Assembly (NCBI GenBank): GCA_900316265.1
Contig: ONCH01000006.1
Span: 44,342-108,341 of the forward strand
Direction: 5' to 3'
DNA: 64,000 bases
DNA from: an uncultured Prevotellaceae bacterium
GTDB taxonomy: Bacteria; Bacteroidota; Bacteroidia; Bacteroidales; Bacteroidaceae
Shown here one piece after another: positions 10,509 to 63,714 of this stretch. The position numbers and the translations under genes are program-made. Positions within the stretch are counted from its first letter, which is position 1. Each line of letters starts with the position of its first letter. The notes beneath the pieces were generated by a model that had not been told where the DNA came from, ran no database searches, and saw nothing but the letters and a program-made list of their open reading frames with translations.

Positions 10509-11897
10509 TTATAACAGGGCGGGGAGCTCGTAAAGGTGGGTGCTGTTTGAACCCTTGATGAGGATATAGCGGCCCTGTGGCAACTCTTGTGCGATGGCAG
10601 ATTTCACCTCTTCGACATTCGCAAAGGTGCGGAAGGGCGATTGACCATTGACCATTGACCATTGACCATTGACCGCTTTCTGGAACTCTGCACCGACGAG
10701 CCATACCTCATCGAAACCTGCCTGCTGCAGCTGGGCAACGACCTTCTGATGCTCCTCTTGCGAGACGTCGCCAAGCTCGCCCATCATACCCAGAATAGCC
10801 ATCTTGGGCGACACCTCCATGAGTTGGAAATTGTCGATAGCCGCCTTCATCGAGGTGGGGTTGGCATTATAGGCATCGACAATGAGGTGGTTCTTCTCCG
10901 TCTCCGTCAGCTGTGAGCGATTGTTGGTGGGCACGTAGTTGGCGAGTGCATGATTAATCTGCTCGAAGGGGATGTTGTTAACATAGCCGACAGTGATGGC
11001 AGCCAGCATGTTGTCGAGGTTATAGGCACCAATAAGGTGGGTCTGTACCTCCATCCACTCGCTGGTGTAGCCCGCATCGTGGTCTTGCTCGCGCCAGCGG
11101 AACTTCAGGAACGGTGCACACGAGACGACCTCGCCACGAATCAGGATGTCCTCGTTGTCACTCTGGCCGTAGTAGTAGATGTCGGGCTGGTGATCATTGA
11201 CCATTGAACATTGACCATTAATCATCTGCATCAAGTATTCATTGTCGCGATTGACGAAGATGGGACAGTCGTGAGCGATGAGGAAGTCATAGAGTTCACC
11301 CTTGGTCTTGCAGACACCCTCGAAGGAGCCGAAACCCTGCAGGTGGGCACGTCCCACGTTGGTGATGAGTCCGCAGGTGGGTTCGGCCGTTTCTACCAGT
11401 GTCTTGATGTCGCCAGGATGCGAGGCACCCATCTCTACAACAGCTATCTCTGTCTGGTCGTCCAGTCGGAAGAGCGTCTTGGGCACACCCACGTCGTTGT
11501 TGAAGTTACCCTCCGTTGCCATCACGCTATAGCACTCTGCCAAGACGGCACGAACCAGTTCCTTCGTGGTAGTCTTGCCATTAGTGCCCGTGATGCCCAC
11601 CATCGGCATCTCAAACTGGCGACGATGCTCACGCGCCAGGTCCTTGAAGGTCTGGAGGCAGTCGCTAACCTTTATGAGGTGAGAGGTGAGAGGTGAGGGC
11701 TGAGCGGACAGTTCCTCTATCTCTTCATCGACGATGGCGTAGGCACAGCCTTTCTCCAGTGCCTGGAGAGCGAACTTGTTGCCATTGAACGACTCACCCT
11801 TCAAGGCGAGGAAGATGCTACCCTCAGGACAGTTACGCGAGTCTGTCGTGATACACGGATGCTGCTGATACAGCTTATAGAGCTCTTTGATATCCAT
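10509..11897 (-). CDS. murF: UDP-N-acetylmuramoyl-tripeptide--D-alanyl-D-alanine ligase MurF
   Basis: 462 aa Mur ligase that adds D-Ala-D-Ala to the UDP-MurNAc-tripeptide in the cytoplasm, the last soluble step of peptidoglycan precursor synthesis. The substrate domain has TTDSRNCPEGSIFLALKG; the ATP site GTNGKTT is at 104-110; EMGASHPGDI and AYNANPTSMKAA are further family motifs; the C-terminal domain ends KGSNSTHLYELPALL. Three low-complexity stretches (about residues 65-74, 224-235 and 408-420) are encoded by 7-bp tandem repeats and have no counterpart in typical MurF. A -7 element TATCTTTG (11936-11929) lies 32 bp upstream. Confidence 0.93.
   Translation of the reverse strand: MDIKELYKLYQQHPCITTDSRNCPEGSIFLALKGESFNGNKFALQALEKGCAYAIVDEEIEELSAQPSPLTSHLIKVSDCLQTFKDLAREHRRQFEMPMVGITGTNGKTTTKELVRAVLAECYSVMATEGNFNNDVGVPKTLFRLDDQTEIAVVEMGASHPGDIKTLVETAEPTCGLITNVGRAHLQGFGSFEGVCKTKGELYDFLIAHDCPIFVNRDNEYLMQMINGQCSMVNDHQPDIYYYGQSDNEDILIRGEVVSCAPFLKFRWREQDHDAGYTSEWMEVQTHLIGAYNLDNMLAAITVGYVNNIPFEQINHALANYVPTNNRSQLTETEKNHLIVDAYNANPTSMKAAIDNFQLMEVSPKMAILGMMGELGDVSQEEHQKVVAQLQQAGFDEVWLVGAEFQKAVNGQWSMVNGQSPFRTFANVEEVKSAIAQELPQGRYILIKGSNSTHLYELPALL
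10640..10674 (-). repeat. Tandem 7-bp repeat (5 x ATTGACC) inside murF
   Basis: Five perfect copies on the plus strand. On the murF coding strand the unit reads GGTCAAT, whose three frames all give the same cyclic heptapeptide G-Q-W-S-M-V-N and never a stop. The opposite strand contains TGA in every frame. Confidence 0.9.
11194..11227 (-). repeat. Degenerate 7-bp repeat (ATTGACC family) inside murF
   Basis: Four to five diverged copies of the same unit as the tract at 10640, encoding MINGQCSMVNDHQ in MurF. The divergence suggests an older tract than the perfect one 500 bp away. Confidence 0.7.
11676..11703 (-). repeat. Tandem 7-bp repeat (GAGGTGA) inside murF
   Basis: Three perfect and one diverged unit. 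The coding strand reads CTCACCT units, translated as SPLTSHL. Same family as the tracts in folP (15431, 15854) and the OM-protein gene at 60.7 kb. Confidence 0.85.
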
Positions 11898-11928
11898 TCC
11901 CTTAATGATTATTTGTTCTTATGGGGCG

Positions 11929-11936
11929 CAAAGATA
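11929..11936 (-). promoter_or_regulatory. murF promoter -7 element
   Basis: TATCTTTG on the minus strand in the 81-bp gap between the secreted-protein gene and murF, so murF probably has its own start even though it follows the sigma-factor operon. Confidence 0.6.
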
Positions 11937-11978
11937 CTATTTTCTTCTGAAACTACCAAATGTTTTTGGAAGTTAACC

Positions 11979-13712
11979 TTAGTCGCCCACCCTTTCTACG
12001 ATGAAGTCGCAGGCTGAGAACCAGTTGCTGGGCTTGCCGTATTGCTGGACGATGTCGCTATCGAGGGTAACACCATAGGTGAGTTTGCCGTTGGTGTTGT
12101 TATGGGGCACGGTGATGTCGTCGAGGTAGATGCGGTTCCAACCGTATCCCACTCCACCATGTGCTGTGGCCTTATTGACATCGAGAGCCAGGACACCCTC
12201 GTTGGAGTTGGCACCCTTCGAGAAGCGGTTGAGGGCTGAGAACCACACATTACCACCAGTATTGCCATCTGCAGGAATCTCCTTCTGAATGGTTTTGCCA
12301 CCCACCTGTGCAAAAACCACGATGCCTGAGTGACCGCTGTTGGTTTGCTTGGCACGCACCACAGCCGACACACGATAGCGACCTGGGCGCAGGTTTTCAA
12401 GTGTGCTCTCGATACGGATGCCGTCGCTGTAGTTCTCGCTCCGCACATGGAGATAACCCGTTTGCTGGTCAGCGGTATAATGTTCGCCACGACCAGTGAA
12501 CATATCCTCGCCGTTGTATGCCACGGGCTGGTGGGTAAGCTTCCAGTGGTTGCGGTTCAGGTAGTCCTGATCGTTGTCGGTCAGGCTGTCAATCTCAACC
12601 GTCTTGTTACGCAGCACTTCTATTGTGCGCTGAGCATCCTGAACTTGCATCTTCAGGTCATCGGGCATGTATTTGGCAATGTCGTTGGACATATTCATCA
12701 GCTCTTCAGCCTGACGATGGGAGAGCATGTAGGGGTAGCTGCCTATCTCTTTGTTGAGCGTGTAGCAGATGGCTTTCTGCTCGGTAGCCGTGGCAGTGCC
12801 GCCAATACTCGTCATGAGCCAGAACTTAGCCTTCAGGGCCTCATAGCTGGTCTTGAGGTTGAGCGTCTTGGGTGAGTCGCAGAGCTTCTGTGCCATCGTG
12901 ATGAAATTATACTGGTAGAGCTCGGCCAGCGTATCAGTGTTGAGGGCCTTGGCACGTTCGGGTTCTTTTTTACGTATTTCAAACAGCCGGTTCTGCGCCA
13001 CGCTGAGCGCCGTATTCGTGCGGTCGAGGTATTCGTCGGGATCGTAGGACTTCACCTGCGGAGCCTTCAGCTTCGGACAGTGGAACTCATACATGATGCC
13101 TCTGGTCATATAGTATTTGTGCTTATTATCGAGGGCATCGTCCTCCTCATAGCTTGCCCATGAGAGCAGATAGGTGGAACGGAAACCGTCGTCATCCTTG
13201 AAACCAATGATGCGAACGTTCAAGGTTGGATGAAGTTCGAGTGGGAAGGTCTCGCCACTCTCGCCGTAGGCGATGCTGACGCCTGGGAAGACGGCCTGCT
13301 CATCGCCCGCCACATAGCTATAATAGCTGGAGGCGTAGGGCGCCTGCTTGTCGTAGGTGTCGAGAATCTGGCGCAAGGGCAGATTGGGGTCGTCGGGCAC
13401 GTTGTGGAACTCAAAGCTCCAGCCGTCGAGGTAGTTGGGGCCAATGTCTGCCCTGTTCTTCCCAAGTTGCACCACGTGAATCTTGTTCTTGGGCACCAGA
13501 CCACCGCCATCGAGGGCCGTGTAGATGATGCTGAGACTATCCTTACTGCCAGGTACCCACGTGGACGAGATATATTTGGGTTGCCTGCGGTCGAGTGTTT
13601 CTCTGAAGGCCGTATGCATGGCCTGTGCGTGCTTGTTCTCCTGAGCGTGGAGAGTGGTTATGCTGATGGGCATCAGCAGGAGTGCTATGGTAATAATCAG
13701 TTGTTTCATCAT
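11979..13712 (-). CDS. Secreted protein of unknown function, third gene of an ECF sigma operon
   Basis: 577 aa with a signal peptide to about HAQ (23). The middle part is rich in helices (LSVAQNRLFEIRKKEPERAK, LMNMSNDIAKYMPDDL). The C-terminal 200 residues (DMFTGRGEHYTADQQTGYLHVRSENYSDG through GRYRVSAVVRAKQTNSGHSG, then GWNRIYLDDITV) have the strand pattern of a jelly-roll, carbohydrate-binding-like fold. I do not recognise a named family and assign no activity. The gene lies 3 nt after the anti-sigma gene, so it is probably co-expressed with, and may be the output or sensor of, that regulatory pair. Confidence 0.7.
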   Translation of the reverse strand: MMKQLIITIALLLMPISITTLHAQENKHAQAMHTAFRETLDRRQPKYISSTWVPGSKDSLSIIYTALDGGGLVPKNKIHVVQLGKNRADIGPNYLDGWSFEFHNVPDDPNLPLRQILDTYDKQAPYASSYYSYVAGDEQAVFPGVSIAYGESGETFPLELHPTLNVRIIGFKDDDGFRSTYLLSWASYEEDDALDNKHKYYMTRGIMYEFHCPKLKAPQVKSYDPDEYLDRTNTALSVAQNRLFEIRKKEPERAKALNTDTLAELYQYNFITMAQKLCDSPKTLNLKTSYEALKAKFWLMTSIGGTATATEQKAICYTLNKEIGSYPYMLSHRQAEELMNMSNDIAKYMPDDLKMQVQDAQRTIEVLRNKTVEIDSLTDNDQDYLNRNHWKLTHQPVAYNGEDMFTGRGEHYTADQQTGYLHVRSENYSDGIRIESTLENLRPGRYRVSAVVRAKQTNSGHSGIVVFAQVGGKTIQKEIPADGNTGGNVWFSALNRFSKGANSNEGVLALDVNKATAHGGVGYGWNRIYLDDITVPHNNTNGKLTYGVTLDSDIVQQYGKPSNWFSACDFIVERVGD

Positions 13713-13715
13713 TTC

Positions 13716-14450
13716 TTAAAAGTTAATGTAATTAGCGGTACTATCGTTTTGTATCTTGTTCATCGCCTGTTCGGCTTGTTTGCCAACAATGCGATATACC
13801 ATCTGCTGTAGACGGGCATCAGCGGCGATGAGTCTTTCCACCTGTGCCGAACTGACACTATCGTCCAGTTTTTCCATTTCGGTCTCAAGGCGGGCAATGC
13901 AGTCGGCGAGGTTCTCAGCAGTTGGAGCGGAGACGGCTGTTGGGTTGTTGATCCGCTTGCCTGTCTGGGGCTTAGCGGGAATGGTCTGAGCCACAACGGC
14001 TTCCACCGTTTTCTCTGTAGGTGTGATGGTCTCGTGCTTAGGCTGGATGCTATCCTTGAGGACTTCGGTTTTCTCTGCCACCAGCGAAGGCTGTTCGGCA
14101 GTGCTTCTTCCAAGATGGAACACCAAGAGCAATACGATGCTTGCAGCGATGCCAACCATGAGCCACCTGAGGGCGACTATCTTGGGCTTCTCCCTGACAG
14201 TCTTGGGAAGCATCTGAATCTTCGCGCTGTCATCCTTGATGGGTTGTTCTGACGTTCCGCCTTCTATCTCAATGTCCACCTGTCCGTTGTCGAACAGCGT
14301 GAACATCTCCTTATATTCGGCCCACTCCTCGTCCACTTCATGGGTGCGGAAGTACTGTGCCAGCACTTCTTCCTCGGCAACGCTGGTTTCGCCAGCCATG
14401 AACCTGCTGAGCAATTGGGCTATCTCTTGTTTATCGTATTGTTGTTTCAT
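13716..14450 (-). CDS. Putative membrane anti-sigma factor
   Basis: 244 aa. A short cytosolic helical domain (MKQQYDKQEIAQLLSRFMAGETSVAEEEVLAQYF), one transmembrane helix (about 93-112, LRWLMVGIAASIVLLLVF) and a periplasmic tail with Pro/Thr-rich and helical parts. This layout matches anti-sigma factors that hold an ECF sigma factor at the inner membrane. It lacks the HxxxCxxC zinc motif of ZAS domains. It overlaps the sigma gene by 4 nt, the usual arrangement. Confidence 0.7.
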   Translation of the reverse strand: MKQQYDKQEIAQLLSRFMAGETSVAEEEVLAQYFRTHEVDEEWAEYKEMFTLFDNGQVDIEIEGGTSEQPIKDDSAKIQMLPKTVREKPKIVALRWLMVGIAASIVLLLVFHLGRSTAEQPSLVAEKTEVLKDSIQPKHETITPTEKTVEAVVAQTIPAKPQTGKRINNPTAVSAPTAENLADCIARLETEMEKLDDSVSSAQVERLIAADARLQQMVYRIVGKQAEQAMNKIQNDSTANYINF

Positions 14451-14944
14451 TGTTGGTTCCTCCTTTTTAGTTTGTTGAGTAATTCGTTGCGGGCTCGTGA
14501 GAGTAGTGTGGAAACTGACGTTTGTCGTATGCCTAAGATGTCGGCAATCTCGCTTAATTCGCGGTGTTCCAACTGGCGCATCCTCAGCACCATTCCTGCC
14601 GTGGAAGGCAGACTGTCTATCTGTTCGCCTATCCAGTGCTCCAGTTCCGTATATTCCAGACGGTCGTGCAGCGAGTCTTCATCTATCAATGGCATCGTGA
14701 TAGCAATATCGGCATGCTGATGCGTCGTGCGCCACCTGTCGATACACACCCGTTTGGTGGTAATCACAGCCGAAGCCTTCAGGTGAGCCACATCGTTGAG
14801 TTGCTCATGCAGGCTCCACAGCTTCAGCATCACGTCTTGCGCAATGTCCTCCGCATCGTCCTGGGCATAGCCGAACTGTCCAGCTATCGACACAGCTTTT
14901 GCACGCGTCTCACCTGCCACATATGTAAACTCTTTTTGTGTCAT
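14447..14944 (-). CDS. ECF-type RNA polymerase sigma factor
   Basis: 165 aa from ATG 14944 (MTQKEF). An upstream ATG at 14983 is in frame but falls in the probable promoter. Region 2 is YAQDDAEDIAQDVMLKLWS, region 4 is RELSEIADILGIRQTSVSTLLSRARNELLNKL with the recognition helix. It directs RNA polymerase to a small regulon. A sequence just upstream, ATTTGTTCG followed by TATATATG, resembles autoregulated ECF promoters of this phylum rather than the housekeeping TAnnTTTG type. Co-transcribed with its putative anti-sigma factor and a secreted protein. Confidence 0.85.
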   Translation of the reverse strand: MTQKEFTYVAGETRAKAVSIAGQFGYAQDDAEDIAQDVMLKLWSLHEQLNDVAHLKASAVITTKRVCIDRWRTTHQHADIAITMPLIDEDSLHDRLEYTELEHWIGEQIDSLPSTAGMVLRMRQLEHRELSEIADILGIRQTSVSTLLSRARNELLNKLKRRNQQ

Positions 14945-15018
14945 TACACATATATAACGAACAAATCCTGAAAAATTAAACAAGAAATCATATTTTTTTT
15001 ATAAAAAGATAAAAATCT

Positions 15019-15049
15019 TTTGTTCTGCGCTCAACTTTTCGTAACTTTG
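15019..15049 (+). promoter_or_regulatory. folP-cdaA promoter
   Basis: TTTG (15019-15022), 19-bp spacer, TAACTTTG (15042-15049): a full match to the Bacteroidota housekeeping promoter. The ATG of folP is only 8 bp beyond, so the leader is a few nucleotides at most. Confidence 0.8.
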
Positions 15050-15057
15050 CGGCTAAT

Positions 15058-15885
15058 ATGGAATATACACTGAATTGCAACGGCAAGCTGTTAGCGTTGA
15101 GCACGCCACAGGTGATGGGCATACTGAATGCCACGCCCGACTCGTTTTATGCGGGGAGCAGGTCGCAGACGGAACAGGAGATTGCCGAGCGTACGCACCA
15201 GATACTGGACGAGGGTGCCACCATCATTGATGTGGGCGCCTGCTCTACACGTCCTGACAGCGAACCCGCTACGGAAGAAGAAGAGATGGCGCGTTTGCGA
15301 ATGGCACTCGCCATCGTGCGTCGTGAGGCCCCCGATGCAATTATCAGCGTGGACACCTACCGCCCTGATATCGCCCGCATGGTGGTGGAAGAGTTTGGTG
15401 CAGACATCATCAACGACGTGGGTGGGCCTGTCACCTCTCACCTCTCACCTCTCACCTCTGGCATGTTTCGCATGGTCAGCCGTCTGGGTGTACCATATAT
15501 CTATATGTCACGGAAGGCAACGATGAAAGATATCTTGCTGGACTGTGCAGAGGTGGTGGACACCTTGCGCTCGATGGGACAGAAGGATATTGTGGTGGAC
15601 CCTGGCTTCGGCTTTGGCAAGACGGTGGACGACAATTACCAGGTGATGAACGAGCTGGAGCGTATGCAGATGCTGCACCTGCCCATACTGGTGGGCATCT
15701 CCAGAAAATCAATGATATACAAATTCTTAGGATCATCTCCTGAGGAGTCTCTGAACGGAACGACGGCACTCAACACCATCTCCCTGATGAAAGGTGCTGA
15801 TATTCTGCGTGTTCACGACGTGAAGGAAGCCGTAGAATGCATGAGGCTATTCTCTCACCTCTCACCTCTCACCCCTAACCCCTAA
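15058..15885 (+). CDS. folP: Dihydropteroate synthase
   Basis: 275 aa TIM-barrel enzyme joining p-aminobenzoate to dihydropterin pyrophosphate in folate synthesis. Motifs: GILNATPDSF (21-30), IIDVGACSTRPDS, ISVDTYRPD, INDVGGP, VVDPGFGFGKTVDDN and LVGISRKSMIY. After INDVGG, where related enzymes have a short loop, the sequence reads PVTSHLSPLTSGMF, encoded by a 7-bp repeat. The last ten codons (FSHLSPLTPNP) come from a second tract of the same repeat that also supplies the stop codon. cdaA follows after 4 nt, so the two form an operon. Confidence 0.93.
   Translation: MEYTLNCNGKLLALSTPQVMGILNATPDSFYAGSRSQTEQEIAERTHQILDEGATIIDVGACSTRPDSEPATEEEEMARLRMALAIVRREAPDAIISVDTYRPDIARMVVEEFGADIINDVGGPVTSHLSPLTSGMFRMVSRLGVPYIYMSRKATMKDILLDCAEVVDTLRSMGQKDIVVDPGFGFGKTVDDNYQVMNELERMQMLHLPILVGISRKSMIYKFLGSSPEESLNGTTALNTISLMKGADILRVHDVKEAVECMRLFSHLSPLTPNP
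15431..15458 (+). repeat. Tandem 7-bp repeat (4 x TCACCTC) inside folP
   Basis: Four perfect units encoding TSHLSPLTS in a surface loop of dihydropteroate synthase. The sense strand is stop-free in all frames, while the antisense strand carries TGA. Confidence 0.9.
15854..15881 (+). repeat. 7-bp repeat forming the 3' end of folP
   Basis: Units CTCACCT, CTCACCT, CTCACCC, CTAACCC. Degeneration of the final unit provides the TAA stop at 15883-15885, so the repeat has replaced or extended the native C terminus. Confidence 0.8.
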
Positions 15886-16663: not shown

Positions 16664-16682
16664 ACGTAAACGCAAAATAATT

Positions 16683-16710
16683 CATCATGCATAATGCATA
16701 ATTCATAATT
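16683..16710. repeat. 7-bp repeat (CATAATT family) in pta promoter region
   Basis: Four units: CATCATG, CATAATG, CATAATT, CATAATT. They end 6 bp before the -7 element TACCTTTG and occupy the place where the -33 TTTG would be. Confidence 0.8.
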
Positions 16711-16764: not shown

Positions 16765-17775
16765 ATGGATTTATTAAGTCAAATCGTAGCGCGTGCTAAG
16801 AGTAACAAGCAGCGCATCGTGCTCCCTGAAGCAGAAGAAGAACGTACCCTATGTGCAGCCGACAAGGCTCTGGCTGATGAACTTGCAGACATCATCCTGA
16901 TTGGTAATCCTGCCAAAGTGGAGGCTCTGGCAAAGGAGAAGGGACTGACCAACATTGGCAAGGCCACCCTCATTGACCCAGAGAACTATGACAAGAGCGA
17001 GGAACTGGCTGAGAAGCTGGCTGAGATTCGCAAGTCGAAGGGTATGACCATTGAGGAGGCTCGCAAGCTGATTAAGAACCCGCTGTACCTGGGTTGTATG
17101 ATTATCAAGACCGAGGGTGCTGATGGTCAGATTAGTGGTGCACTGTCAACTACTGGCGACACGCTGCGTCCCGCTCTGCAGATTATCAAGTGCCAGCCTG
17201 GCATCACCTGCGTCAGTGGTGGTCTGCTGCTCATCTCTAAGCAGAAGCAGTATGGTGAGGATGGTGTGCTCGTCATTGCCGACGTTGCTGTTACCCCCAT
17301 GCCCGATGCTAACCAGCTGGCTCAGATTGCTGTCTGCACCGCTCAGATGGCTAAGGCTGTGGCTGGTTTCGAGGATCCTCGCGTGGCTATGCTGAGCTTC
17401 TCTACGAAGGGTTCTGCTAAGCACGAGGTTTGCGACAAGGTGATTGAGGCTACCAAGCTGGCTAAGGAGATGGCTCCTGAGCTGAAGATTGACGGTGAGT
17501 TGCAGGCTGATGCTGCTCTGGTTCCTTCAGTAGGTGCCAAGAAGGCTCCTGGCTCAGACATCGCAGGTAAGGCTAACGTGCTCGTATTCCCCAACCTCGA
17601 GGTAGGTAATATTGGCTATAAGATGGTTCAGCGCCTGGGTGATGCTATCGCTATCGGTCCGGTTCTGCAGGGTATCGCTCGTCCTGTCAACGACCTCTCT
17701 CGTGGTTGCTCTGTGGATGACATCTACTACATGATTGCCATCACTGCTTGTCAGGCTATGGACGCCAAAAAATAA
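16765..17775 (+). CDS. pta: Phosphate acetyltransferase
   Basis: 336 aa from ATG 16765 (MDLLSQIVARAKSNKQRIVLPE); the longer in-frame start would lie within the promoter. It converts acetyl-CoA and phosphate to acetyl phosphate and CoA. Conserved features: VLPEAEEERTL at the N terminus, SGALSTTGDTLRPALQII, and the C-terminal PGSDIAGKANVLVFPNLEVGNIGYKMVQRLG with GPVLQG. Short (about 330 aa) single-domain form without the DRTGG extension. ackA follows after 34 nt, giving the acetate and ATP-yielding branch of fermentation. Confidence 0.93.
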   Translation: MDLLSQIVARAKSNKQRIVLPEAEEERTLCAADKALADELADIILIGNPAKVEALAKEKGLTNIGKATLIDPENYDKSEELAEKLAEIRKSKGMTIEEARKLIKNPLYLGCMIIKTEGADGQISGALSTTGDTLRPALQIIKCQPGITCVSGGLLLISKQKQYGEDGVLVIADVAVTPMPDANQLAQIAVCTAQMAKAVAGFEDPRVAMLSFSTKGSAKHEVCDKVIEATKLAKEMAPELKIDGELQADAALVPSVGAKKAPGSDIAGKANVLVFPNLEVGNIGYKMVQRLGDAIAIGPVLQGIARPVNDLSRGCSVDDIYYMIAITACQAMDAKK

Positions 17776-17803
17776 AAGTAAAAAGGTAAAAAAGTAAAAA
17801 AGT
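17773..17803. repeat. 8-bp A-rich repeat between pta and ackA
   Basis: Units of the form AAAAAGTA (four imperfect copies) fill almost the whole 34-bp gap, ending just before the ackA ATG. Copy-number change would alter spacing ahead of ackA translation. Confidence 0.6.
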
Positions 17804-17809
17804 AAAACA

Positions 17810-20922: not shown

Positions 20923-20947
20923 ACAATAACCGTTAACCAATAACCAT
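20923..20947 (-). repeat. 7-bp repeat (TTGGTTA) forming the sufT-like/lpxH spacer
   Basis: The whole 25-bp intergenic spacer consists of units ATGGTTA, TTGGTTA, ACGGTTA and a partial TTGT, read on the minus strand up to the lpxH ATG. Confidence 0.6.
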
Positions 20948-24951: not shown

Positions 24952-26388
24952 CTACTTGATATTATCAACAAAGCGGAATAGACGATTCCAACGAATGCCC
25001 GAGAAACCACCTCGGTCGGGATCAGAGCTCCACCAGATGAAAATGGGCTTACCCACGATATGGTCTTCGGGAACAAAACCCCAGTAGCGGGAGTCGAGCG
25101 AGTTGTGACGATTGTCGCCCTGCATCCAGTAGTAGTCCATCTTGAAGGTGTACTTAGTTGTCTCCTTGTCGTTGATATATATCTTGCCGTCCTTCACCTC
25201 CAGCTTGTTACCCTCATAAGTACGGATAGGACGCTCGTAGATGGGAAGGTTCTTCAATGTCAGGTCAATGCTCTCTCCTTTAGCAGGTATCCAGATAGGA
25301 CCGTAGTTGTCGCGTGTCCAGTGCATATTACCATTCAACGGATAGATGTCTAAGTCGCTGGCGTCTTTGTTCAGCGTAATACTCTCCACAATATCTGAAC
25401 GTTGCTTCAGAGCAGCAGCAGTGCTGTTGGTCATAGGCATATATCCGTAGTTATTCAAGTCGCGCAACTCCTCCATAGTAATACCCCACTCCTGCATCTC
25501 CTCGTCCGTGAAATGACGCTTTAGCTTAACGTGGTACGTATATTGTACATTGTCGGGCTCTTTATTAGCCTTGCCATTAATATAAATAACACGGTCTTTA
25601 ATCTGCAAGGTCTGACCTGGAAGACCCACACAGCGTTTCACATAGTTCTCACGTCGGTCTGTAGGACGGGTATCTATGAGTCCATACTCCTGTGGATTGG
25701 CCTCAATGGTTTGTTTACCTGCCTGATAAATGGTGTTGAAATAGAGAGGCAACTGTTCCTGCGTCAGTGAATCAGGATTAGGACGTTGTGGATAAGCCTG
25801 ATAGCCAATCTGATAGCACAACTGATAATAGTCGTAAGCCTGATACTGTGGTGCGGAGCATATCGTATCACCTGCAGGGAAGTTAAATACCACAATGTCG
25901 TTCAACTGTACCTTGCCCAAGCCTTTCACACGACGATAGTCCCAATGAGGCCACTCAATATAAGACTTGCACTCGAAGATGGGCATCGTGTGCTGGGTCA
26001 GTGGCATCGTCAACGGTGTTTCAGGAATACGAGGACCATAGCTTACCTTGCTGACAAAGAGGTAGTCACCTGTCAACAGACTCTTCTCCAAAGAACTCGA
26101 TGGAATGACGTAATTCTGGAAGAAGAACAGGTTGATGAAGTAGACTGCAACAAGGGCAAAGACAAGGGCATCAACCCACGACATGACCCAACGAACTGGG
26201 CCTTCTGCGTCTTTCCACCACTGCCAGTTAATCTTCTTGGTAATATAGACATCATAGATGAAAGGAATAACGAGCAGACCCCACCATGAACCTACCCAGT
26301 AGAGGAACAGTAAGTAAAGCACCAGTACGCAAATGAACTTTGCCCACTGCACCTTCATATTCAGCTTTTTCTTTTCTCTTTTCTCCAT
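24952..26388 (-). CDS. lepB: Signal peptidase I
   Basis: 478 aa inner-membrane serine protease that removes signal peptides. Two or three N-terminal hydrophobic segments (about 17-48 and 69-90) come first. The catalytic Ser is Ser99 in IPSSSLEKSLLTGD, the Lys is Lys251 in YVKRCVGLPG, and DNRHNSLDSRYWGFVPEDHIVG is box E. A long insertion of about 150 residues between boxes B and D is common in this phylum. Sits between dapB (4 nt) and the degenerate paralogue. Confidence 0.92.
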   Translation of the reverse strand: MEKREKKKLNMKVQWAKFICVLVLYLLFLYWVGSWWGLLVIPFIYDVYITKKINWQWWKDAEGPVRWVMSWVDALVFALVAVYFINLFFFQNYVIPSSSLEKSLLTGDYLFVSKVSYGPRIPETPLTMPLTQHTMPIFECKSYIEWPHWDYRRVKGLGKVQLNDIVVFNFPAGDTICSAPQYQAYDYYQLCYQIGYQAYPQRPNPDSLTQEQLPLYFNTIYQAGKQTIEANPQEYGLIDTRPTDRRENYVKRCVGLPGQTLQIKDRVIYINGKANKEPDNVQYTYHVKLKRHFTDEEMQEWGITMEELRDLNNYGYMPMTNSTAAALKQRSDIVESITLNKDASDLDIYPLNGNMHWTRDNYGPIWIPAKGESIDLTLKNLPIYERPIRTYEGNKLEVKDGKIYINDKETTKYTFKMDYYWMQGDNRHNSLDSRYWGFVPEDHIVGKPIFIWWSSDPDRGGFSGIRWNRLFRFVDNIK

Positions 26389-27109: not shown

Positions 27110-27153
27110 ACTCTATCACGTATTAATACCGTGCAAAGATACGATAAATAATT

Positions 27154-27180
27154 CATAATTCACCAACATCATTCATAATT
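27154..27180. repeat. Two CATAATT units in divergent promoter region
   Basis: CATAATT at 27154-27160 and 27174-27180, the same unit as the tract upstream of pta. They lie in the dapB/methyltransferase divergent region, where the -33 element of the plus-strand promoter would be. Confidence 0.5.
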
Positions 27181-27194
27181 TAAAATATTTTTTG

Positions 27195-27202
27195 TACTTT
27201 TG
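27195..27202 (+). promoter_or_regulatory. -7 element directly before methyltransferase ATG
   Basis: TACTTTTG, then TAGC, then ATG at 27207. With the usual Bacteroidota start-site spacing, transcription begins at or next to the ATG, so the mRNA would be leaderless. Confidence 0.65.
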
Positions 27203-27206
27203 TAGC

Positions 27207-28367
27207 ATGTTTATTAATGAGGACACATGGCAGTATATTCGTCAGCATGCTGACGAGGACGTTAGAAAACTGGCACTACAAGGTGTTGGCAATCCTTCTG
27301 TCGACCTGCCAACGGCTCTTCATCAGATAGCTGGTCGTCAGACTGCACAACATAAATTGCCTTCATGGGCTGCTAATAACAGCATCATCTATCCACCCCA
27401 CCTGAATATGGAGCAATGTTCGTCAGAACAAACAGCACGCTATAAAGCACCATTAGCTGGCAAGGGGAATGTATATGTTGACTTAACTGGTGGATTTGGT
27501 GTTGATTTCTATTGGATGTCGCAGGGTTTTAAAGAGCGCACCTATGTGGAGCGTGATGAACAATTATGCGCCATTTCAACGGAAAACTTCCACACACTCG
27601 ACCATGATTGTTCTGTGGTTAACGGATCTGCTGTTGACTATCTCGCCACCATCCCTCATGCGGATGTTATCTATCTTGACCCTGCACGTCGTAATGAACA
27701 CGGAGGACGTACCTATTCCATTGAGGATTGTACACCCAATGTCCTGGAACTGCTACCTGTGTTGATGCAGAAAGCAGACCGCATCATTCTAAAACTATCA
27801 CCTATGCTCGACTGGCGTAAGGCTGTCAACGACCTTAAACATGTTGCTGAAGTACACATTGTCAGTGTCAATAATGAGTGTAAAGAACTGGTGTTGGTAC
27901 TTAAAGAGAATGCCGACGCTCTTCGGGTGGTCTGTGTCAATGATGACAGCATTTTCGAAGTGCCACCAATCCTCAACCATCAATCCCCAACCATCAGCCA
28001 GCATCCATCATACCTTTACGAGCCTAATGCCAGCATCATGAAGGCAGGATGCTTTGGTGCCGTTGCGAATAAGTATGGTCTTCAGCAGATTGCCGATAAT
28101 TCGCATCTATTCCTTTCTTCCGATGAAATCGAGGATTTCCCTGGGCGTCGTTTTCAAATAACGGCCATTTCATCGATGAATAAGCATGAATTAAAGGATG
28201 CACTAAAAGGGTTGGACAGGGCAAATATTGCCGTTCGCAATTTTCCACTATCTGTTGACCAACTACGTAAGAAACTCAAATTAAAAGATGGCGGTGAGGT
28301 CTATCTCTTTGCCACAACAATGGCTGACGGACAGCATCGCTTGTTTATTTGCCGTAAAATAGGTTAA
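27207..28367 (+). CDS. Class I SAM methyltransferase with THUMP-like C-terminal domain
   Basis: 386 aa from ATG 27207. The SAM-binding motif is VYVDLTGGFGVDFYWM, followed by YVERDEQLCAISTENF and YLDPARRNEHGGRTYSIEDCTPN. The C-terminal part (PGRRFQITAISSMNKHELKDALKGLDRANIAVRNFPLSVDQLRKKLKLKDGG) matches the THUMP-like domain of predicted RNA methyltransferases in Bacteroidota. The substrate is unknown, but an RNA base is likely. Residues about 256-267 (NHQSPTISQHP) derive from a 7-bp repeat. Confidence 0.82.
   Translation: MFINEDTWQYIRQHADEDVRKLALQGVGNPSVDLPTALHQIAGRQTAQHKLPSWAANNSIIYPPHLNMEQCSSEQTARYKAPLAGKGNVYVDLTGGFGVDFYWMSQGFKERTYVERDEQLCAISTENFHTLDHDCSVVNGSAVDYLATIPHADVIYLDPARRNEHGGRTYSIEDCTPNVLELLPVLMQKADRIILKLSPMLDWRKAVNDLKHVAEVHIVSVNNECKELVLVLKENADALRVVCVNDDSIFEVPPILNHQSPTISQHPSYLYEPNASIMKAGCFGAVANKYGLQQIADNSHLFLSSDEIEDFPGRRFQITAISSMNKHELKDALKGLDRANIAVRNFPLSVDQLRKKLKLKDGGEVYLFATTMADGQHRLFICRKIG
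27974..28008 (+). repeat. 7-bp repeat (CAACCAT) inside methyltransferase gene
   Basis: Five units: CAACCAT, CAATCCC, CAACCAT, CAGCCAG, CATCCAT. The sense strand is stop-free; the antisense unit ATGGTTG gives TGA. It lies in the linker between the SAM and THUMP-like domains. Confidence 0.7.
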
Positions 28368-36307: not shown

Positions 36308-36741
36308 CTCTGGGTGAAAAATAATTATTCAAAAAAGATAATCGTTTTTGGATAATTGTGTATCGCCTAAAGAATCAAAAATCAGGATTCCTTAGATTTC
36401 AACTAGATCATCCTGTTTCCGTACTAGCCTATCCCATCGCGGTATTAGCTGTACTTTCTTTATGCGACGGATGTCGCAGATATTTGCGACGGCTTTCGAA
36501 TATATGTTCGACGGCCGTCGAACGAAAGAAGAAAATCTGGATGGGGAAGTAGAGACGGTTGGGTTGGGAGAACAATGCGAATGTTGTGTAATGTGCAGAA
36601 TGTGAGACGGTTGTACGAACGGAGTGTACGAAGAAAAGCCAGTTTGGGGAGCGTTTTAGAAGGCTGAAAAGGACGAAAAGCAAGCTGAAATTAACATTAA
36701 TTTTGATTTCGTGTAAAGAAATCGGAACCGGCTGGGGATAT
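36308..36741. other. 434-bp gene-free region between hairpins B and C
   Basis: I find no convincing gene. The one open frame of 64 codons lacks the local codon pattern and a promoter. The region holds the three 22-bp dyad repeats at 36463-36528. A G-rich, T-poor stretch (about 36536-36690) follows, whose composition differs from the flanking genes. Confidence 0.6.
36463..36528. repeat. Three tandem 22-bp dyad repeats
   Basis: Units at 36463-36484, 36485-36506 and 36507-36528 share T(G/T)CGACGG, then TCG, then A/T-rich ends. Each centres on a CGAC-GTCG type dyad: TGCGAC GGAT GTCGCA in unit 1, and the perfect 16-bp palindrome TTCGACGGCCGTCGAA in unit 3. A 22-bp period is about two helical turns, as expected for operators on one face of DNA. 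Confidence 0.75.
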
Positions 36742-39164: not shown

Positions 39165-39224
39165 CAAAAGTACAAAAAAATTAAGAATTAAGAATTAAGA
39201 ATTAAGAATTATTTACTACCTTTG
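39165..39224. promoter_or_regulatory. Divergent promoters separated by a 7-bp repeat
   Basis: Minus-strand TACTTTTG (39172-39165) serves the arabinofuranosidase gene and plus-strand TACCTTTG (39217-39224) the transporter. Both -33 zones fall inside the 4 x TTAAGAA tract, and neither has a TTTG. Repeat number therefore sets the spacing and phasing of both promoters. Confidence 0.7.
39181..39208. repeat. Tandem 7-bp repeat (4 x TTAAGAA)
   Basis: Four perfect units between two divergent promoters. Both strands of this unit contain TAA in frame, so it could not persist within a gene. Confidence 0.9.
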
Positions 39225-58643: not shown

Positions 58644-58649
58644 CATCGT

Positions 58650-59692: not shown

Positions 59693-59702
59693 ATTCTGAA
59701 AA

Positions 59703-59822
59703 CTATCTTACCACCTCGGTAAATTCTGGCTTGGCATCAGCAGTCTTACCAACCGTGACATAGATGATAGACGTTGACTCCTCACCATTCATTGCTGCCA
59801 GTGATAATAATAGCTTTTTCAT
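59703..59822 (-). CDS. 39-aa ORF upstream of murQ (leader peptide or deletion remnant)
   Basis: Starts MKKLLLSLAAM, like a signal peptide, then runs into NGEESTSIIYVTVGKTADAKPEFTEVVR and a TAG stop, 10 bp before murQ. A -7 element TACCTTTG on the minus strand (about 59850) lies upstream, so it is transcribed first in the murQ operon. The abrupt join of a truncated signal peptide to a polar tail suggests an internal deletion of a secreted-protein gene, but a functional leader peptide is possible. Confidence 0.5.
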   Translation of the reverse strand: MKKLLLSLAAMNGEESTSIIYVTVGKTADAKPEFTEVVR

Positions 59823-59917
59823 GTTCTTATTACTTGTAAAAACGCCCCAAAGGTACATTATTTACCGCTATCCTGCAAGTTTTTTATCCTTTATTTACAA
59901 AAATCGCGATGATTGTA

Positions 59918-59947
59918 TTGTTGGTTGGAAGATTTTTCTTATTTTTG
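59918..59947 (+). promoter_or_regulatory. Promoter of plug/barrel protein gene
   Basis: TTG (59918-59920), 19 bp, TATTTTTG (59940-59947), giving a 5' leader of about 65 nt that contains the hairpin at 59963-59984. Confidence 0.6.
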
Positions 59948-59962
59948 CAACTGATAAAAGTT

Positions 59963-59984
59963 TACAAGGGTAATATCCCTTGTA
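59963..59984 (+). promoter_or_regulatory. Leader hairpin before the plug/barrel gene
   Basis: TACAAGGG (59963-59970) and CCCTTGTA (59977-59984) form a perfect 8-bp stem with a TAATAT loop in the 5' leader. No T tract follows. It could protect the mRNA or be a protein- or sRNA-binding site. Confidence 0.5.
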
Positions 59985-60017
59985 CGATAGAACCTGAAAA
60001 CCGACATCGCAACTATT

Positions 60018-61775
60018 ATGAGGATACAAAACCTAAGATATCTCCTGAAAAGTTGCATCCTGCTGTTGGCGCTGAGCATGAGTGGCGTGACAGCCCATGC
60101 AGCCAATGATGATGAAATTATTGAGTTGCAGGGCGACCGCTATGTCATACATGTCGATAGGATGCATCCTGACAGCGAGATGACCTTGCTGGACGTGCTG
60201 AACACCTGCCCGGAGTTTCTCTCCATCAACGGCAAAAAGATTGACCTCGATTACAAGTTACGTGTCGATAACATTGACCTCGTCTTTGATGCAGAGTCAT
60301 TCCTCGCCAACGTCAAAGCCTGCGAGATAGACCAAATCCAGATTTGCAGCAACACCTCGGTGGCAAAAGCTGTAAACGGCACGAAAGGTGTCATAGACAT
60401 CTATTATCGCAAAGACGTCAAGACCGACGGCAAGGTGGCACTCACTGGTAGCACCTACGGCAACGGCATGCTCTACGCCGACGTCACCAACAAGAGCGAC
60501 AAGCTCACCGTAAAGGGCTATGCTTTGGGGCGTTCCTCCTACGGCAAGGCCTATCCCACCAATGCCAGCAAGATGACTGACCGCGCGCTTATCGAGAACC
60601 TGCACCTCAACCTCGACTGGAAAATCACCAACAACGACAGACTCTTCATCAAAGCCTACCAAAAGTTCGAGAACACAAAGCAGAGAATCACTCACCTCTC
60701 ACCCCTCACCTCTCCCTTCTCTTACACCCGCTTCATCAGTCTCGTGCTCTCCTACTCCCACACCTTCAACAACGATGCCATACTCTTTGCCGAGATAGGT
60801 GCCGACCACACCCGAACCACCAGCAACGGCTCTCATGTCGGTGACACCTATCCTTACGGCTTCATTGAGTTCGACACGCCTCTCCTCACTCGTGACCTCT
60901 GGTTGATGCTTGGTGCAGAGGTGGACTACGAGAACTCCTGGAATATCGGGCAGAATCGCGGACAGCATACCGTCAGCGACTTCTACGTACAGCTCGACTA
61001 CACCCACGGCCCTTGGGTGCTCACCCTTGGCGACCGTTACCGCATGATGAACTACTGGTATCGCCAGTACGACTCCGAAGACCACAGCCTCTGGACACAT
61101 CAGCGCAATAACCATTGCTATCTGGCCAGCGTGGGCTACAAGACAGGGCACCACTTCCTGCAGGCACTCGTCGCCCGCCGATTCTTCTATCCTGAAATCA
61201 GCGATTTCCTCGTCGACGAAACAGCTACCACCACCGACCTCAAATACGATGCCGACAGCTATAGCACCAACCTCGCCCATCAAGGCGTCCTGCGCTATTC
61301 CTACCAGCAACAGAACCTCACCTATCACGCCAGCATTGAGGGCAATTGGTACACCCATCTCCCTGGCCCCAACAAAATGCAGGTCGCATGCAGGAACTCC
61401 GTCTATTGGAAGACGGGCCCTTGGCAACTCACCCTCGGCGCCAACTACTATTACCAGCACGTCAGTGCGGATGCCACCGCCCCCTCTGATAACGACAATT
61501 TCTACACCCTCAAGGTCGCGCCCGCCCTCAGTCTTCCCCACGATTTGCGCCTCTCCGCTACCCTTCTCTATAGCAGTCGGCGCACCCTCGAAGACCAGCA
61601 TCCGCACCTCTTCGCCACCGTCAAGGCTAATAAGCAGCTCGGCAAGAAATGCAACCTCTTTGCTGAGTTCCACGATATCGCCGGCTATGCAACGGGCAAT
61701 GTCTCACAACTCACTGGCCTCTACCAGAATCGTGCCCTCAGCATCGGTGCTACCATTTATCCGTTCCGAAAATAA
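60018..61775 (+). CDS. Plug-and-barrel outer-membrane protein (TonB-receptor-like, short)
   Basis: 585 aa. Signal peptide to TAHA (about 28). A plug-like domain (MTLLDVLNTCPEFLSINGKKIDLDYKLRVDNIDLVF to VNGTKGVIDIYYRKD, about 50-135) precedes a barrel of about 450 residues ending in SIGATIYPFRK. No TonB box or regulatory domain is obvious, and it is shorter than true receptors, so energised transport is uncertain. Residues 224-234 (THLSPLTSPFS) come from a 7-bp repeat in a loop. Confidence 0.72.
   Translation: MRIQNLRYLLKSCILLLALSMSGVTAHAANDDEIIELQGDRYVIHVDRMHPDSEMTLLDVLNTCPEFLSINGKKIDLDYKLRVDNIDLVFDAESFLANVKACEIDQIQICSNTSVAKAVNGTKGVIDIYYRKDVKTDGKVALTGSTYGNGMLYADVTNKSDKLTVKGYALGRSSYGKAYPTNASKMTDRALIENLHLNLDWKITNNDRLFIKAYQKFENTKQRITHLSPLTSPFSYTRFISLVLSYSHTFNNDAILFAEIGADHTRTTSNGSHVGDTYPYGFIEFDTPLLTRDLWLMLGAEVDYENSWNIGQNRGQHTVSDFYVQLDYTHGPWVLTLGDRYRMMNYWYRQYDSEDHSLWTHQRNNHCYLASVGYKTGHHFLQALVARRFFYPEISDFLVDETATTTDLKYDADSYSTNLAHQGVLRYSYQQQNLTYHASIEGNWYTHLPGPNKMQVACRNSVYWKTGPWQLTLGANYYYQHVSADATAPSDNDNFYTLKVAPALSLPHDLRLSATLLYSSRRTLEDQHPHLFATVKANKQLGKKCNLFAEFHDIAGYATGNVSQLTGLYQNRALSIGATIYPFRK
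60687..60714 (+). repeat. 7-bp repeat (CTCACCT family) inside plug/barrel gene
   Basis: Units CTCACCT (60691-60697), CTCACCC, CTCACCT plus flanking partial units, in frame and on the stop-free strand, encoding THLSPLTSP. Confidence 0.75.
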
Positions 61776-61782
61776 ATTGAAA

Positions 61783-61814
61783 GTTGAGAAGTTGAGAAGT
61801 TAAGAAGTTATGAA
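61783..61814 (+). repeat. 8-bp repeat (GTTGAGAA) including the start codon of the antiporter gene
   Basis: Units GTTGAGAA, GTTGAGAA, GTTAAGAA, GTTATGAA. The last variant supplies the ATG (61810-61812). Confidence 0.8.
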
Positions 61815-63444
61815 GAAAGAATCCCAGTTAGAAACCATTAGTCCTGGCAACCCCAGACGCGCCACATACCTGTCGCTGATAGCAGTCTTGCTGTTTATGG
61901 GATGTCTGAATTATGCCGTAAGCATCAATGGTATGCCCGTCAAAGACTCCTTCTGGGCGCTCACTCCTGCCCTCATGGCCATCACGCTGGCGCTCATTAC
62001 CAAGGAAGTCTATAGTTCCCTCTTCCTCGGAATACTCACGGGTGCCCTGCTCATTGCCGAGTTCCATCCAGTAGAAATCCTCGACCAGCTCTTTCCCAAA
62101 GGCGTCATGACCGTGCTCGCCGACAAGTGGAACGTTGGCATCCTCACCTTCCTCGTCATCCTTGGCACGATGGTGCAGCTCATGAACCGTGCCGGAGGCT
62201 CTGCGGCCTTTGGCGCATGGGCCTCGAAGCGCATCAAGAGCCGTGCAGGCGCCCAGCTGTCCACCATGCTGCTGGGCTGTGTCATCTTCATCGACGACTA
62301 CTTCAACTGTCTCACCGTAGGCTCCGTCATGCGACCCGTCACCGACAAGCACAAGATAAGCCGTGCCAAGCTCGCCTACCTCATCGACTCCACCGCAGCA
62401 CCCATCTGCATCATAGCGCCCATCTCCTCATGGGCTGCTGCCGTCGCAGGCTTCGTCAAAGGAGCAAATGGCATTAGCATCTTCATCCAGTCCATCCCCT
62501 TCAATTTCTATGCCCTGCTCACCATGTTGATGATGGTCATCATCATCCTTATGAAGCTCGACTATGGCCCCATGTTGCAGCACGAGAAGATGGCACAGGG
62601 CGGCGACCTCGACATCGCTGGTGAGAGCGGCCCATCCACTGCGGAGAGCCCGAAGGAAGAAAGAGTAGGCCGCGTGTCAGACCTCGTCATACCCGTCATC
62701 CTGCTCATTATCGCATGTGTCATCGGCATGATCTACACAGGCGGCTACTTCAGTGGCAAGTCCTTCGTCGAAGCCTTCGCCACCAGCGATGCTTCCGTAG
62801 GTCTCGTCATGGGCTCTTCCGTAGCGCTCATCATCACCATCGTCTACTACATGGTGCGCCAGTCGCTCACCTTCAGCGAATGCATGGATTGTCTGCCCGA
62901 AGGTTTCAAGCAGATGGTTCCCGCCATGCTCATCCTGACGTTTGCCTGGACGCTGAAGAGCATGACCGACAGCCTCGGCGCCGCCACCTATGTCGCTGGC
63001 TTGGTGGCACACTCAGCCAGCGGCCTCATGGGCTTCCTGCCTGCCATCATCTTCCTCGTTGCCGTTGGTCTCGCCTTTGCCTCTGGCACGTCGTGGGGCA
63101 CGTTCGGCATCCTCATCCCCATCGTCGTGTCCTGCTTCCAGGAGGTAGACCCACAACTCATGATTATCTCCATCTCCGCGTGCATGGCCGGTGCCGTCTG
63201 TGGCGACCACTGCTCGCCCATCTCCGATACCACCATCATGTCGTCGGCAGGTGCACAATGTGAACATCTGAACCACGTCACCACCCAGCTGCCCTATGCC
63301 CTGACAGCAGCCTCCGTGTCGTTCTTCACATTCCTCGTCGCAGGCTTCACAAAGAGTGCCCTGCTCTCCCTCCTCTTCGGCATCGCGGCCCTCTTCCTCC
63401 TCCTGCTATTCATCCGCCACAGACAACGCGCAGTACAGTCATAA
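61810..63444 (+). CDS. NhaC-type Na+/H+ antiporter family protein
   Basis: 544 aa with about 11-12 membrane helices. Family motifs: GCVIFIDDYFNCLTVGSVMRPVTD, STAAPICIIAPISSWAAAVAGF, FASGTSWGTFGILIPI and GAVCGDHCSPISDTTIMSSAGAQC. Members exchange Na+ for H+ or for malate/lactate at the inner membrane; which one cannot be told from sequence. The start codon lies within an 8-bp repeat. Confidence 0.85.
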   Translation: MKKESQLETISPGNPRRATYLSLIAVLLFMGCLNYAVSINGMPVKDSFWALTPALMAITLALITKEVYSSLFLGILTGALLIAEFHPVEILDQLFPKGVMTVLADKWNVGILTFLVILGTMVQLMNRAGGSAAFGAWASKRIKSRAGAQLSTMLLGCVIFIDDYFNCLTVGSVMRPVTDKHKISRAKLAYLIDSTAAPICIIAPISSWAAAVAGFVKGANGISIFIQSIPFNFYALLTMLMMVIIILMKLDYGPMLQHEKMAQGGDLDIAGESGPSTAESPKEERVGRVSDLVIPVILLIIACVIGMIYTGGYFSGKSFVEAFATSDASVGLVMGSSVALIITIVYYMVRQSLTFSECMDCLPEGFKQMVPAMLILTFAWTLKSMTDSLGAATYVAGLVAHSASGLMGFLPAIIFLVAVGLAFASGTSWGTFGILIPIVVSCFQEVDPQLMIISISACMAGAVCGDHCSPISDTTIMSSAGAQCEHLNHVTTQLPYALTAASVSFFTFLVAGFTKSALLSLLFGIAALFLLLLFIRHRQRAVQS

Positions 63445-63449
63445 AGAAA

Positions 63450-63495
63450 GAGAAGAATCGCCCAGAGGCCACTCCCCTGAGCGATTTCTCTTTTC
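63450..63495 (+). terminator. Terminator of antiporter gene
   Basis: AATCGC (63456-63461) and GCGATT (63481-63486) extended by purine/pyrimidine-rich flanks, then TCTCTTTT. Confidence 0.6.
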
Positions 63496-63538
63496 AGACA
63501 TCAGATATCAAACGGGCCGTGTCCCATACATGTTTAGA

Positions 63539-63555
63539 GTCCCTTAATAAGGGAC
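63539..63555 (-). terminator. Hairpin after smalltalk ORF
   Basis: GTCCCTT/AAGGGAC, perfect 7-bp stem with 3-nt loop, just past the stop of the small ORF. Probably a terminator or mRNA end; there is no long U tract. Confidence 0.45.
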
Positions 63556-63557
63556 GG

Positions 63558-63671
63558 CTATAATGCAGGGTTATAGCCCATACAAGACACTGTTCCCAAT
63601 GCCGTCAAGAATGCGGTGGCGGCTGCGACGATAACCTTCAACAGCACTTCCCAAAATCGTGAATTCTTCAT
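63558..63671 (-). CDS. Smalltalk-family micro-protein
   Basis: 37 aa: MKNSRFWEVLLKVIVAAATA then FLTALGTVSCMGYNPAL. One membrane-type helix and the ALGTVSCM ending match the Bacteroidales smalltalk proteins, tiny lipoprotein-like peptides usually found next to an HU-like gene and an N-acetylmuramoyl-L-alanine amidase gene. The HU-like gene is 75 bp upstream on the same strand; no amidase gene follows here. Function unknown. Confidence 0.75.
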   Translation of the reverse strand: MKNSRFWEVLLKVIVAAATAFLTALGTVSCMGYNPAL

Positions 63672-63674
63672 ACC

Positions 63675-63714
63675 CTCTTAACTTCTTAACTTCTCAACTT
63701 CTTAACTTCTTAAC
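63675..63714 (-). repeat. 8-bp repeat (TTCTTAAC; reverse strand GTTAAGAA)
   Basis: Five units, one variant, between the HU-like gene terminator and smalltalk. Same family as the tract at 61783 but in the opposite orientation. Confidence 0.85.

Follow-up and report, generated by a model that had tools for sequence, protein, structure and literature searches.

Direct tandem repeats of the heptamer TAACTGA have been described from Beggiatoaceae, Cyanobacteria and some Bacteroidetes (PMC4679880), and published accounts of heptamer repeats in other bacterial lineages describe their stop-free strand in open reading frames (ORFs) and a preference for four units (PMC4679880, PMC4692102). A survey of prokaryotic satellites reports heptamer and hexamer repeats as the origin of some of the most abundant satellite families in bacteria (PMC6749651); its main text mentions neither Prevotella nor any name beginning with Bacteroid-, and none of the literature matches listed concerned heptamer arrays in Prevotella. 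We analysed dispersed tandem tracts with 7- or 8-bp units in a 64-kb window (contig ONCH01000006.1, positions 44,342–108,341 of the forward strand; coordinates below are those of the window) from the 2.85-Mb genome of an uncultured Prevotellaceae bacterium (G000; 93 contigs, 87% complete), and compared them with arrays in congeners. The heptamer tracts are confirmed as real. With a probability that we put at about one half, they are the arms, often single, of small dispersed palindromic elements with heptamer-array ends, with slippage acting in addition.

Tandem Repeats Finder (TRF) and a perfect-run scan recovered 14 tracts of a 7- or 8-bp unit in the window, seven in ORFs and seven between genes, in agreement with a sequence-only reading of this DNA that had counted at least 13 scattered tracts. 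Those starting at 11191, 16677, 20924 and 27148 are imperfect (TRF matches 70–86%). At a threshold of at least 10 matched bases, the window contains five period-7 runs (0.00 in 40 order-2 Markov shuffles) and four period-8 runs (0.10 in shuffles), and no runs of period 5 or 6. Across 336 kb of the same genome, compared with one shuffle, there were 17 versus 0 runs at period 7, 14 versus 1 at period 14 and 8 versus 0 at period 8; some multiples of three were also raised (period 21, 9 versus 1; period 24, 6 versus 0). A 1.89-Mb sample of congeners and MurF-bearing contigs gave 187 period-7 arrays (run of at least 9), with uneven density among genomes and none in several 20-kb samples. Tract counts thus exceed the shuffled expectation in both the window and the congeners. 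No period-7 run of at least 10 was found in 100 kb of Escherichia coli K-12 or 21 kb of Sphingobacterium.

Arrays of the unit CTCACCT in the congener G018 have fixed ends and a fixed length. Among 44 arrays in 35 fetched loci (part of 63 matches), 31 start at phase 5 and 32 end at phase 1 (chi-square P = 5e-23 and 3e-24, respectively); phases were flat in 400 simulated random-phase arrays. Both ends together with a length of 32 nt were observed in 21 of the 44, which read CTCTCACC(TCTCACC)3TCT with substitutions, and the other arrays with both ends measure 25 nt (one) or 53 nt (two), that is, steps of 7. These 21 exact copies represent 19 separate places, given that one gene pair is duplicated and one hairpin contributes both arms. 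In 19 of the 21 a T precedes the array, and the right flank is A-rich. The random phase and length expected of slippage are therefore not seen for CTCACCT in G018. In the window genome, 21 of 44 arrays end at phase 1 (P = 7e-8; start phase, P = 0.02), and CTAT or CTATT precedes 10 of 44.

Inverted pairs of CTCACCT arrays have a single polarity. Neighbours of opposite orientation within 120 bp were found three times in G000 and five times each in G018 and G059, and all 13 are (−,+), that is, (GAGGTGA)n–core–(TCACCTC)n, with no (+,−) pair; the left arm of one is just 10 nt long. Both arms lie within one ORF for four of the five pairs in G018, and G059 also has one same-orientation pair and one palindrome with a 4-nt loop. 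Single arms make up most of the arrays. A second palindrome, TTTGCTACCG-N8-38-CGGTAGCAAA, was found in 10 of 100 genomes of the genus with up to 12 exact copies (reversed control, 0); its loops appear alike by eye within some genomes, and a close form with heptamer arms occurs in L013 and G059, in the latter in frame in a 1161-aa beta-galactosidase. In the form TTTGCTRCCG...CGGTAGCAAA, with genome-specific loops, this palindrome was noted at L065 (13560–14340), at L013 (100–260) and at the loci of the genus-wide count, and in G059 it is the one in frame in a beta-galactosidase gene.

Identical units recur within genomes: they make up 30 of 820 array pairs within genomes versus 40 of 2,901 between genomes, a difference reached in 0 of 1,000 permutations (87 arrays, five genomes). 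CTCACCT ×3 (at most one mismatch) matched 41 times in the window genome, where the reversed pattern matched nowhere, and is present in 36 of 100 genomes of the genus, including the window's own, with a maximum of 128 matches. Reversal gives another heptamer pattern, which does occur in some genomes, with 32 matches in G034, 25 in G047 and fewer in others; neither G034 nor G047 has CTCACCT ×3. A phylum survey with TCAMYTC ×3 (at most two mismatches) matched 55 of 148 genomes and is only suggestive, because the reversed control matches many genomes too. In G010, many, not all, AACTCTC array matches lie within ~83 kb of a 1.98-Mb contig (C3, 1.599–1.683 Mb; L062).

The units are non-random and share a loose motif, TCA[A/C]YTC. 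Expectation-maximization alignment of 139 genome-unit pairs, with rotation and strand left free, converged near T[C/T]A[A/C][C/T]T[C], with a log-likelihood of 131.5 versus 39.7–45.7 in 12 letter-shuffled sets. As related genomes can share arrays, the test was redone on 78 distinct units, which scored 50.1 with the consensus ATTCTCA (TCAATTC rotated); 25 shuffles reached no more than 37.5, and 25 sets of random genomic heptamers no more than 24.7. The 46 distinct units found outside ORFs scored 35.6 (27.7 and 20.2 in the two controls; consensus TTAATTC). TAACTGA, considered as a member of this motif, was rejected, as it falls at about the 75th percentile of random heptamers.

Five of the seven ORF tracts, those in MurF and FolP, were compared with orthologues, using one genome per species:

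10509–11897, minus strand: MurF gene (Pfam Mur_ligase M, C and N domains), host of three tracts.
10640–10674, minus strand: 5.0 perfect ATTGACC copies (gene sense GGTCAAT, peptide GQWSMVN) near the MurF C-terminus (TRF, run scan); residues absent in orthologues.
11191–11219, minus strand: 4.1 imperfect ATTGACC/ATTGAAC-family copies in MurF (TRF); among the closest relatives, L007 and L012 are shorter here and L009 is not.
11676–11697, minus strand: 3.1 copies, CTCACCT in gene sense (PSPLTSHL), in a MurF loop that is variable in all relatives (TRF, run scan, alignment).
15058–15885, plus strand: FolP (dihydropteroate synthase) gene (Pfam Pterin_bind; PDB relatives), host of two tracts.
15427–15459, plus strand: 4.1–4.7 CTCACCT copies (VTSHLSPLTS) in a FolP loop, with the 3′ end at the common phase ...CACCTCT (TRF, run scan, alignment); the repeat searches placed this tract at 15431–15459.
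15852–15873, plus strand: 3.1 CTCACCT copies at the FolP C-terminus, with the left end CTATT|CTCTCACC, then ACCCCTAACCCCTAA (run scan, alignment).

In alignments of 24 MurF and 16 FolP relatives with the window proteins, tract residues mostly faced gaps; the orthologues mostly lack them. The eight closest MurF loci fetched are 75–84% identical and are labelled Bacteroidales, Prevotellaceae, Bacteroidaceae or Prevotella. At the DNA level, the relatives have either no insert or another sequence in the same loop: where the window FolP has CTCACCT, L007 has TCAACTN-like units and L012 TCAATGG/TCCATGG-like units. The FolP C-terminus reads SHLSPLTPNP in the window, SHLSPLTSHF in L016 and SQLSPLTSHL in L019, so that SHLSPLT is shared by one of 16 relatives (L016) and L019 has SQLSPLT; because both resemble the window, this site was either shared or struck again. 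Judged from these alignments, the MurF and FolP tracts are insertions in tolerant loops, although, since different repeats often occupy the same loop in relatives, each site did not simply receive one clean insertion. Units of 9 bp that contain CTAG form a second repeat family, which occupies these protein loops too (MurF of L008, L009, L011 and L020; threonine synthase of L241) and is also found in some intergenic regions (L062, 11540–11790).

Host genes in G018 include those for threonine synthase (two arrays), a GH3 glucosidase, MutL, DnaG, RNase III, a NuoN-type subunit and a pseudouridine synthase. Among 29 relatives of the threonine synthase, the CTCACCT array is present in 0 of 27 readable at site 1 and 0 of 19 at site 2; both loops are variable, and in L241 one of them contains CTAG repeats, the other TCAACTC heptamers. 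Where the GH3 enzyme of G018 has ten extra residues, seven of eight relatives read LPLAKGKKILLTGPNA or near it, L295 has its own different insert, and BoGH3B, for which a structure has been solved, has a 10-residue gap exactly at the array site. The NuoN site varies in length in six of eight relatives (those that are readable).

The position of the arrays relative to genes was less informative than the sequence-only reading had supposed. Its claim that a 7-bp unit yields one cyclic heptapeptide in every frame is borne out, CTCACCT giving LSPLTSH in frames 0, 1 and 2 in G018. All seven genic tracts in the window do read the open strand, as it had stated, but any tract within an ORF must do so by definition, and the same logic deprives the restriction of units with stops on both strands to intergenic DNA of the weight it was given. 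The stop-free orientation of genic tracts is nearly a tautology, and it had already been stated for TAACTGA heptamers (PMC4679880). A position relative to genes could be assigned to 179 of the 187 arrays, of which 91 lie in mechanical ORFs and 88 do not; the remaining eight, without a flanking gene on their stretch, were left out here and from the 78 distinct units. Within the 91, the sense strand is the TCA strand in 64 and the opposite one in 27, a bias that is expected and offers no evidence for a mechanism, because the other strand usually contains TGA. Antisense arrays are over-represented near gene 3′ ends (37 versus 9), which we dismissed as an effect of ORF definition, as a TGA in the array ends the gene. 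Units with no stop on either strand make up 13.9%, compared with 24.6% of letter-shuffled and 23.5% of reversed units. A function of the arrays as stop signals was rejected, because only TCA/TGA is enriched (2.2-fold); TAA (0.83) is not, and CTA/TAG (0.37) is depleted. CTCACCT arrays lie in ORFs of at least 100 aa in 38 of 44 cases in G000 and 40 of 44 in G018, near the coding share of the loci (0.92–0.93), and 33 of the 44 in G018 are in sense within ORFs (13, 14 and 6 in frames 0, 1 and 2).

Under the palindromic-element reading, in which the elements would behave much as Rickettsia palindromic elements do, the commonest element would be (GAGGTGA)n–short core–(TCACCTC)n, with other genomes favouring other units. 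A copy-and-insert process would place copies at many loci, and genic copies would survive where the stop-free (TCA) strand is read and the loop tolerates extra residues; later replication slippage would shift copy number by sevens, and units would mutate or be replaced. The copies would stem from mobile-like families, single arms would derive from palindromes and selection would act only as a filter. Copying of a discrete sequence is argued from ends that are fixed in one genome, the single polarity of pairs and the genome-wise recurrence of units; the enrichment, the insertions relative to orthologues and the fixed length in G018 are observed directly. Length changes by sevens, the large number of unique units, the turnover of repeats from loop to loop and the G059 arrays argue that local slippage and mutation act too. 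An active process that makes or inserts heptamers, filtered by selection, had been proposed in the sequence-only reading, and the excess and the insertions agree with it; it had overlooked the unit motif, the fixed ends and length in G018, the end-phase bias in the window genome and the single polarity of pairs.

Several observations weigh against this reading. The 21 exact G018 copies have no target-site duplication (0 shared bases in 16, 1–2 in five). In the window genome just five of 44 arrays measure 32 nt and the lock is weak, and the 17 CTCACCT arrays of G059 show no phase lock, as slippage would allow; only three of these 17 are in ORFs and 14 are outside. Most units were met once per genome in the sample, and the motif is less clearly the same for the 53 distinct units in ORFs (42.0 versus 34.7 and 22.9; consensus ATTCTCA). 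At the third MurF site (11676–11697), the relative L010 reads GTCAAC, a possible seed of local growth, and clean sites are rare, some residues being replaced by the array in threonine synthase, NuoN and GH3. RAYTs (transposases associated with repetitive extragenic palindromic sequences, REPs) are known movers of small palindromes, and RAYT-like Y1 transposases of ~265–310 aa were seen by eye in many CTCACCT-rich genomes; for 21 such genes, which lie in 20 of 21 loci, no CTCACCT array was found in the flanks (up to 250 bp on each side, some cut by contig ends or N). RAYT is thus not supported as mover; many of these flanks, by eye, carry GGGGACAG-type sequences instead. Prevotella Y1 genes are often flanked by GGGGACAG...CTGTCCCC-type sequences, by eye apparently their own REPs (L270, L273, L278, L284, L285, L286, L287 and others).

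Local replication slippage, in which heptamers grow in place from chance seeds under a sequence preference of the machinery and selection clears sensitive places, is a possible but clearly less probable explanation. Seven-base loops perhaps escape mismatch repair, favouring heptamer slippage. The period-7 excess with many unique units, the different units in the same loop of orthologues, the GTCAAC at the third MurF site and the ~8.5-fold higher array density outside ORFs (88 arrays in 193 kb versus 91 in 1,699 kb; ORFs make up 90% of the sample) all fit it, as do the heptamer excess in bacteria already in print (PMC4692102, PMC6749651) and the local origin reported for the tandem repeats of Borg elements (PMC9879509). 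Slippage is hard to square with identical ends and a 32-nt length at 19 separate places, with the fixed polarity of inverted pairs and with the clustering of identical units by genome.

A further account, which we consider unlikely, treats the arrays as filler DNA: repair of breaks or stalled forks would switch template into an existing array, sometimes copying it inverted, with no dedicated mobile element. Replacement at several loops, the palindrome with a 4-nt loop in G059 and the absence of target duplications would be natural outcomes, but randomly pasted pieces should differ in their ends and length. More doubtful still is a template-directed process—RNA-templated or polymerase-driven, with a telomerase-like logic—that would write fixed-end heptamer DNA into Prevotella from a template drifting between species, and thereby keep supplying housekeeping proteins with fresh in-frame loops. 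Selected binding sites of a DNA- or RNA-binding regulator, as proposed for the TAACTGA repeats, are improbable: some intergenic tracts adjoin promoter-like boxes or starts and the units share a loose motif, yet the CTCACCT arrays of two genomes are mostly in ORFs (38 and 40 of 44), the G018 hosts are functionally unrelated and related species have different units. An artefact of assembling metagenome bins, conceivable given the 93 contigs of the window genome and ~340 of G018, can be set aside, as the same pattern occurs in the 3-contig genome G010 and in isolate contigs named as Prevotella ruminicola KHT3 (L019) and Prevotellaceae MN60 (L009), and the arrays leave ORFs open in all three frames.

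The other tracts of the window are as follows:

16677–16710, intergenic: ATAATTC/ATGCATA heptamer tract adjoining TATTTTGTACCTTTGCA (TRF).
17774–17807, intergenic: octamer tract (GTAAAAAA) immediately before the start of the acetate kinase gene (TRF, run scan; gene from Pfam).
20924–20946, probably intergenic: weak TTGGTTA tract overlapping the mechanical start of an ORF (TRF, 75% matches).
27148–27180, divergent intergenic region: weak CATAATT tract (TRF, 70% matches).
27963–27996, plus strand: imperfect CAACCAT/CAATCCC tract (TRF period 14 bp) in the ORF at 27192–28367.
39179–39211, divergent intergenic region: 4.7 perfect AATTAAG copies (TRF, run scan).
60691–60714, plus strand: imperfect CTCACCT tract in the ORF at 60018–61775 (TRF, run scan).
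61777–61815, intergenic: octamer tract AAGTTGAG/AAGTTAAG upstream of an antiporter gene (TRF, run scan).
63676–63715, intergenic: octamer tract TCTTAACT, the inverse of that at 61777, downstream of the antiporter gene (TRF, run scan).

We take TATTTTGTACCTTTGCA beside the first of these to be promoter-like from the Bacteroidetes motif, and presume the same of the two boxes on either side of the tract at 39179–39211. The gene names murF and folP, given from sequence alone, fit the Pfam matches, whereas 'methyltransferase' (27192–28367) and 'OM protein' (60018–61775) have no such backing: the former ORF matches only THUMP-like and PG_1098 ferredoxin-like domains, and the latter had no Pfam match. 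The inverted octamer tracts at 61777–61815 and 63676–63715 (AAGTTAAG and CTTAACTT types) bracket the whole antiporter gene with the polarity of hairpin arms, and GTAAAAAA octamer arrays lie closely upstream of a start codon both at 17774–17807 and in L041 (11380–11398). Also observed were a weak TCTTTTC tract at the start of another gene (26370–26385), absent from the earlier list, 2.7 copies of a 22-bp unit between two ORFs (36463–36522; TRF) and, elsewhere in the window's genome, heptamer-like GGTTAAN/GGGTTAG arrays between convergent ORFs (L041, 16609–16635; L042, 9229–9252; L051, 10820–10843).

Among described systems, the TAACTGA repeats resemble the Prevotella arrays in being 7-bp direct repeats with forward stops in all frames, an open reverse strand (LSVISYQ) in ORFs and species-specific paths; unlike here, the type genome is described as having one unit, mostly intergenic just upstream of starts (PMC4679880). 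The GGGNATC repeats of Xanthomonas and Nostoc are reported as G-rich, quadruplex-forming and rarer in coding regions, with no mobile-element association found in the published account (PMC4692102), whereas the Prevotella arrays are G-poor on one strand and mostly within ORFs in two genomes. The satellite survey is described as attributing short repeats to local duplication errors and as finding dispersed non-coding families of long repeats in only two species (PMC6749651), unlike the situation here. Of the hallmarks of miniature inverted-repeat transposable elements (MITEs), terminal inverted repeats are seen in the paired forms and absent in single arms, and no target-site duplications were found; a parent insertion sequence would be expected to carry AGAGGTGAG ends. 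In the flanks of up to 250 bp, CTCACCT arrays do not show the REP/RAYT hallmark of a RAYT gene flanked by repeat copies. Porphyromonas gingivalis belongs to the same order, Bacteroidales. Its BrickBuilt MITE likewise contains a tandem-repeat array, but is described with a 23-bp unit and as always intergenic (PMC4596501). Rickettsia palindromic elements are palindromic repeats located in frame in unrelated protein genes, with several families per genome; the likeness is one of description, and they are ~150 bp long with a conserved peptide (PMC10969869), whereas the proposed Prevotella elements have heptamer-array arms and most copies are single arms. In-frame insertion into protein genes, as in Rickettsia, is evident in the sense arrays of G018 and in the GH3 relatives. 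Among the literature matches listed, the combination of fixed-length, hairpin-related heptamer pieces inside Prevotella enzymes and genome-favoured units looks new. On this reading it could account for part of the loop-length variation among Prevotella orthologues, and strain comparison would offer a test of how heptamer repeats arise, which reports from other bacteria have left unexplained. If the reading is correct, Prevotella would join Rickettsia as a clear case of small selfish or filler DNA in frame in housekeeping enzymes, with a unit that is open in all three frames and lies mostly in genes in two genomes.

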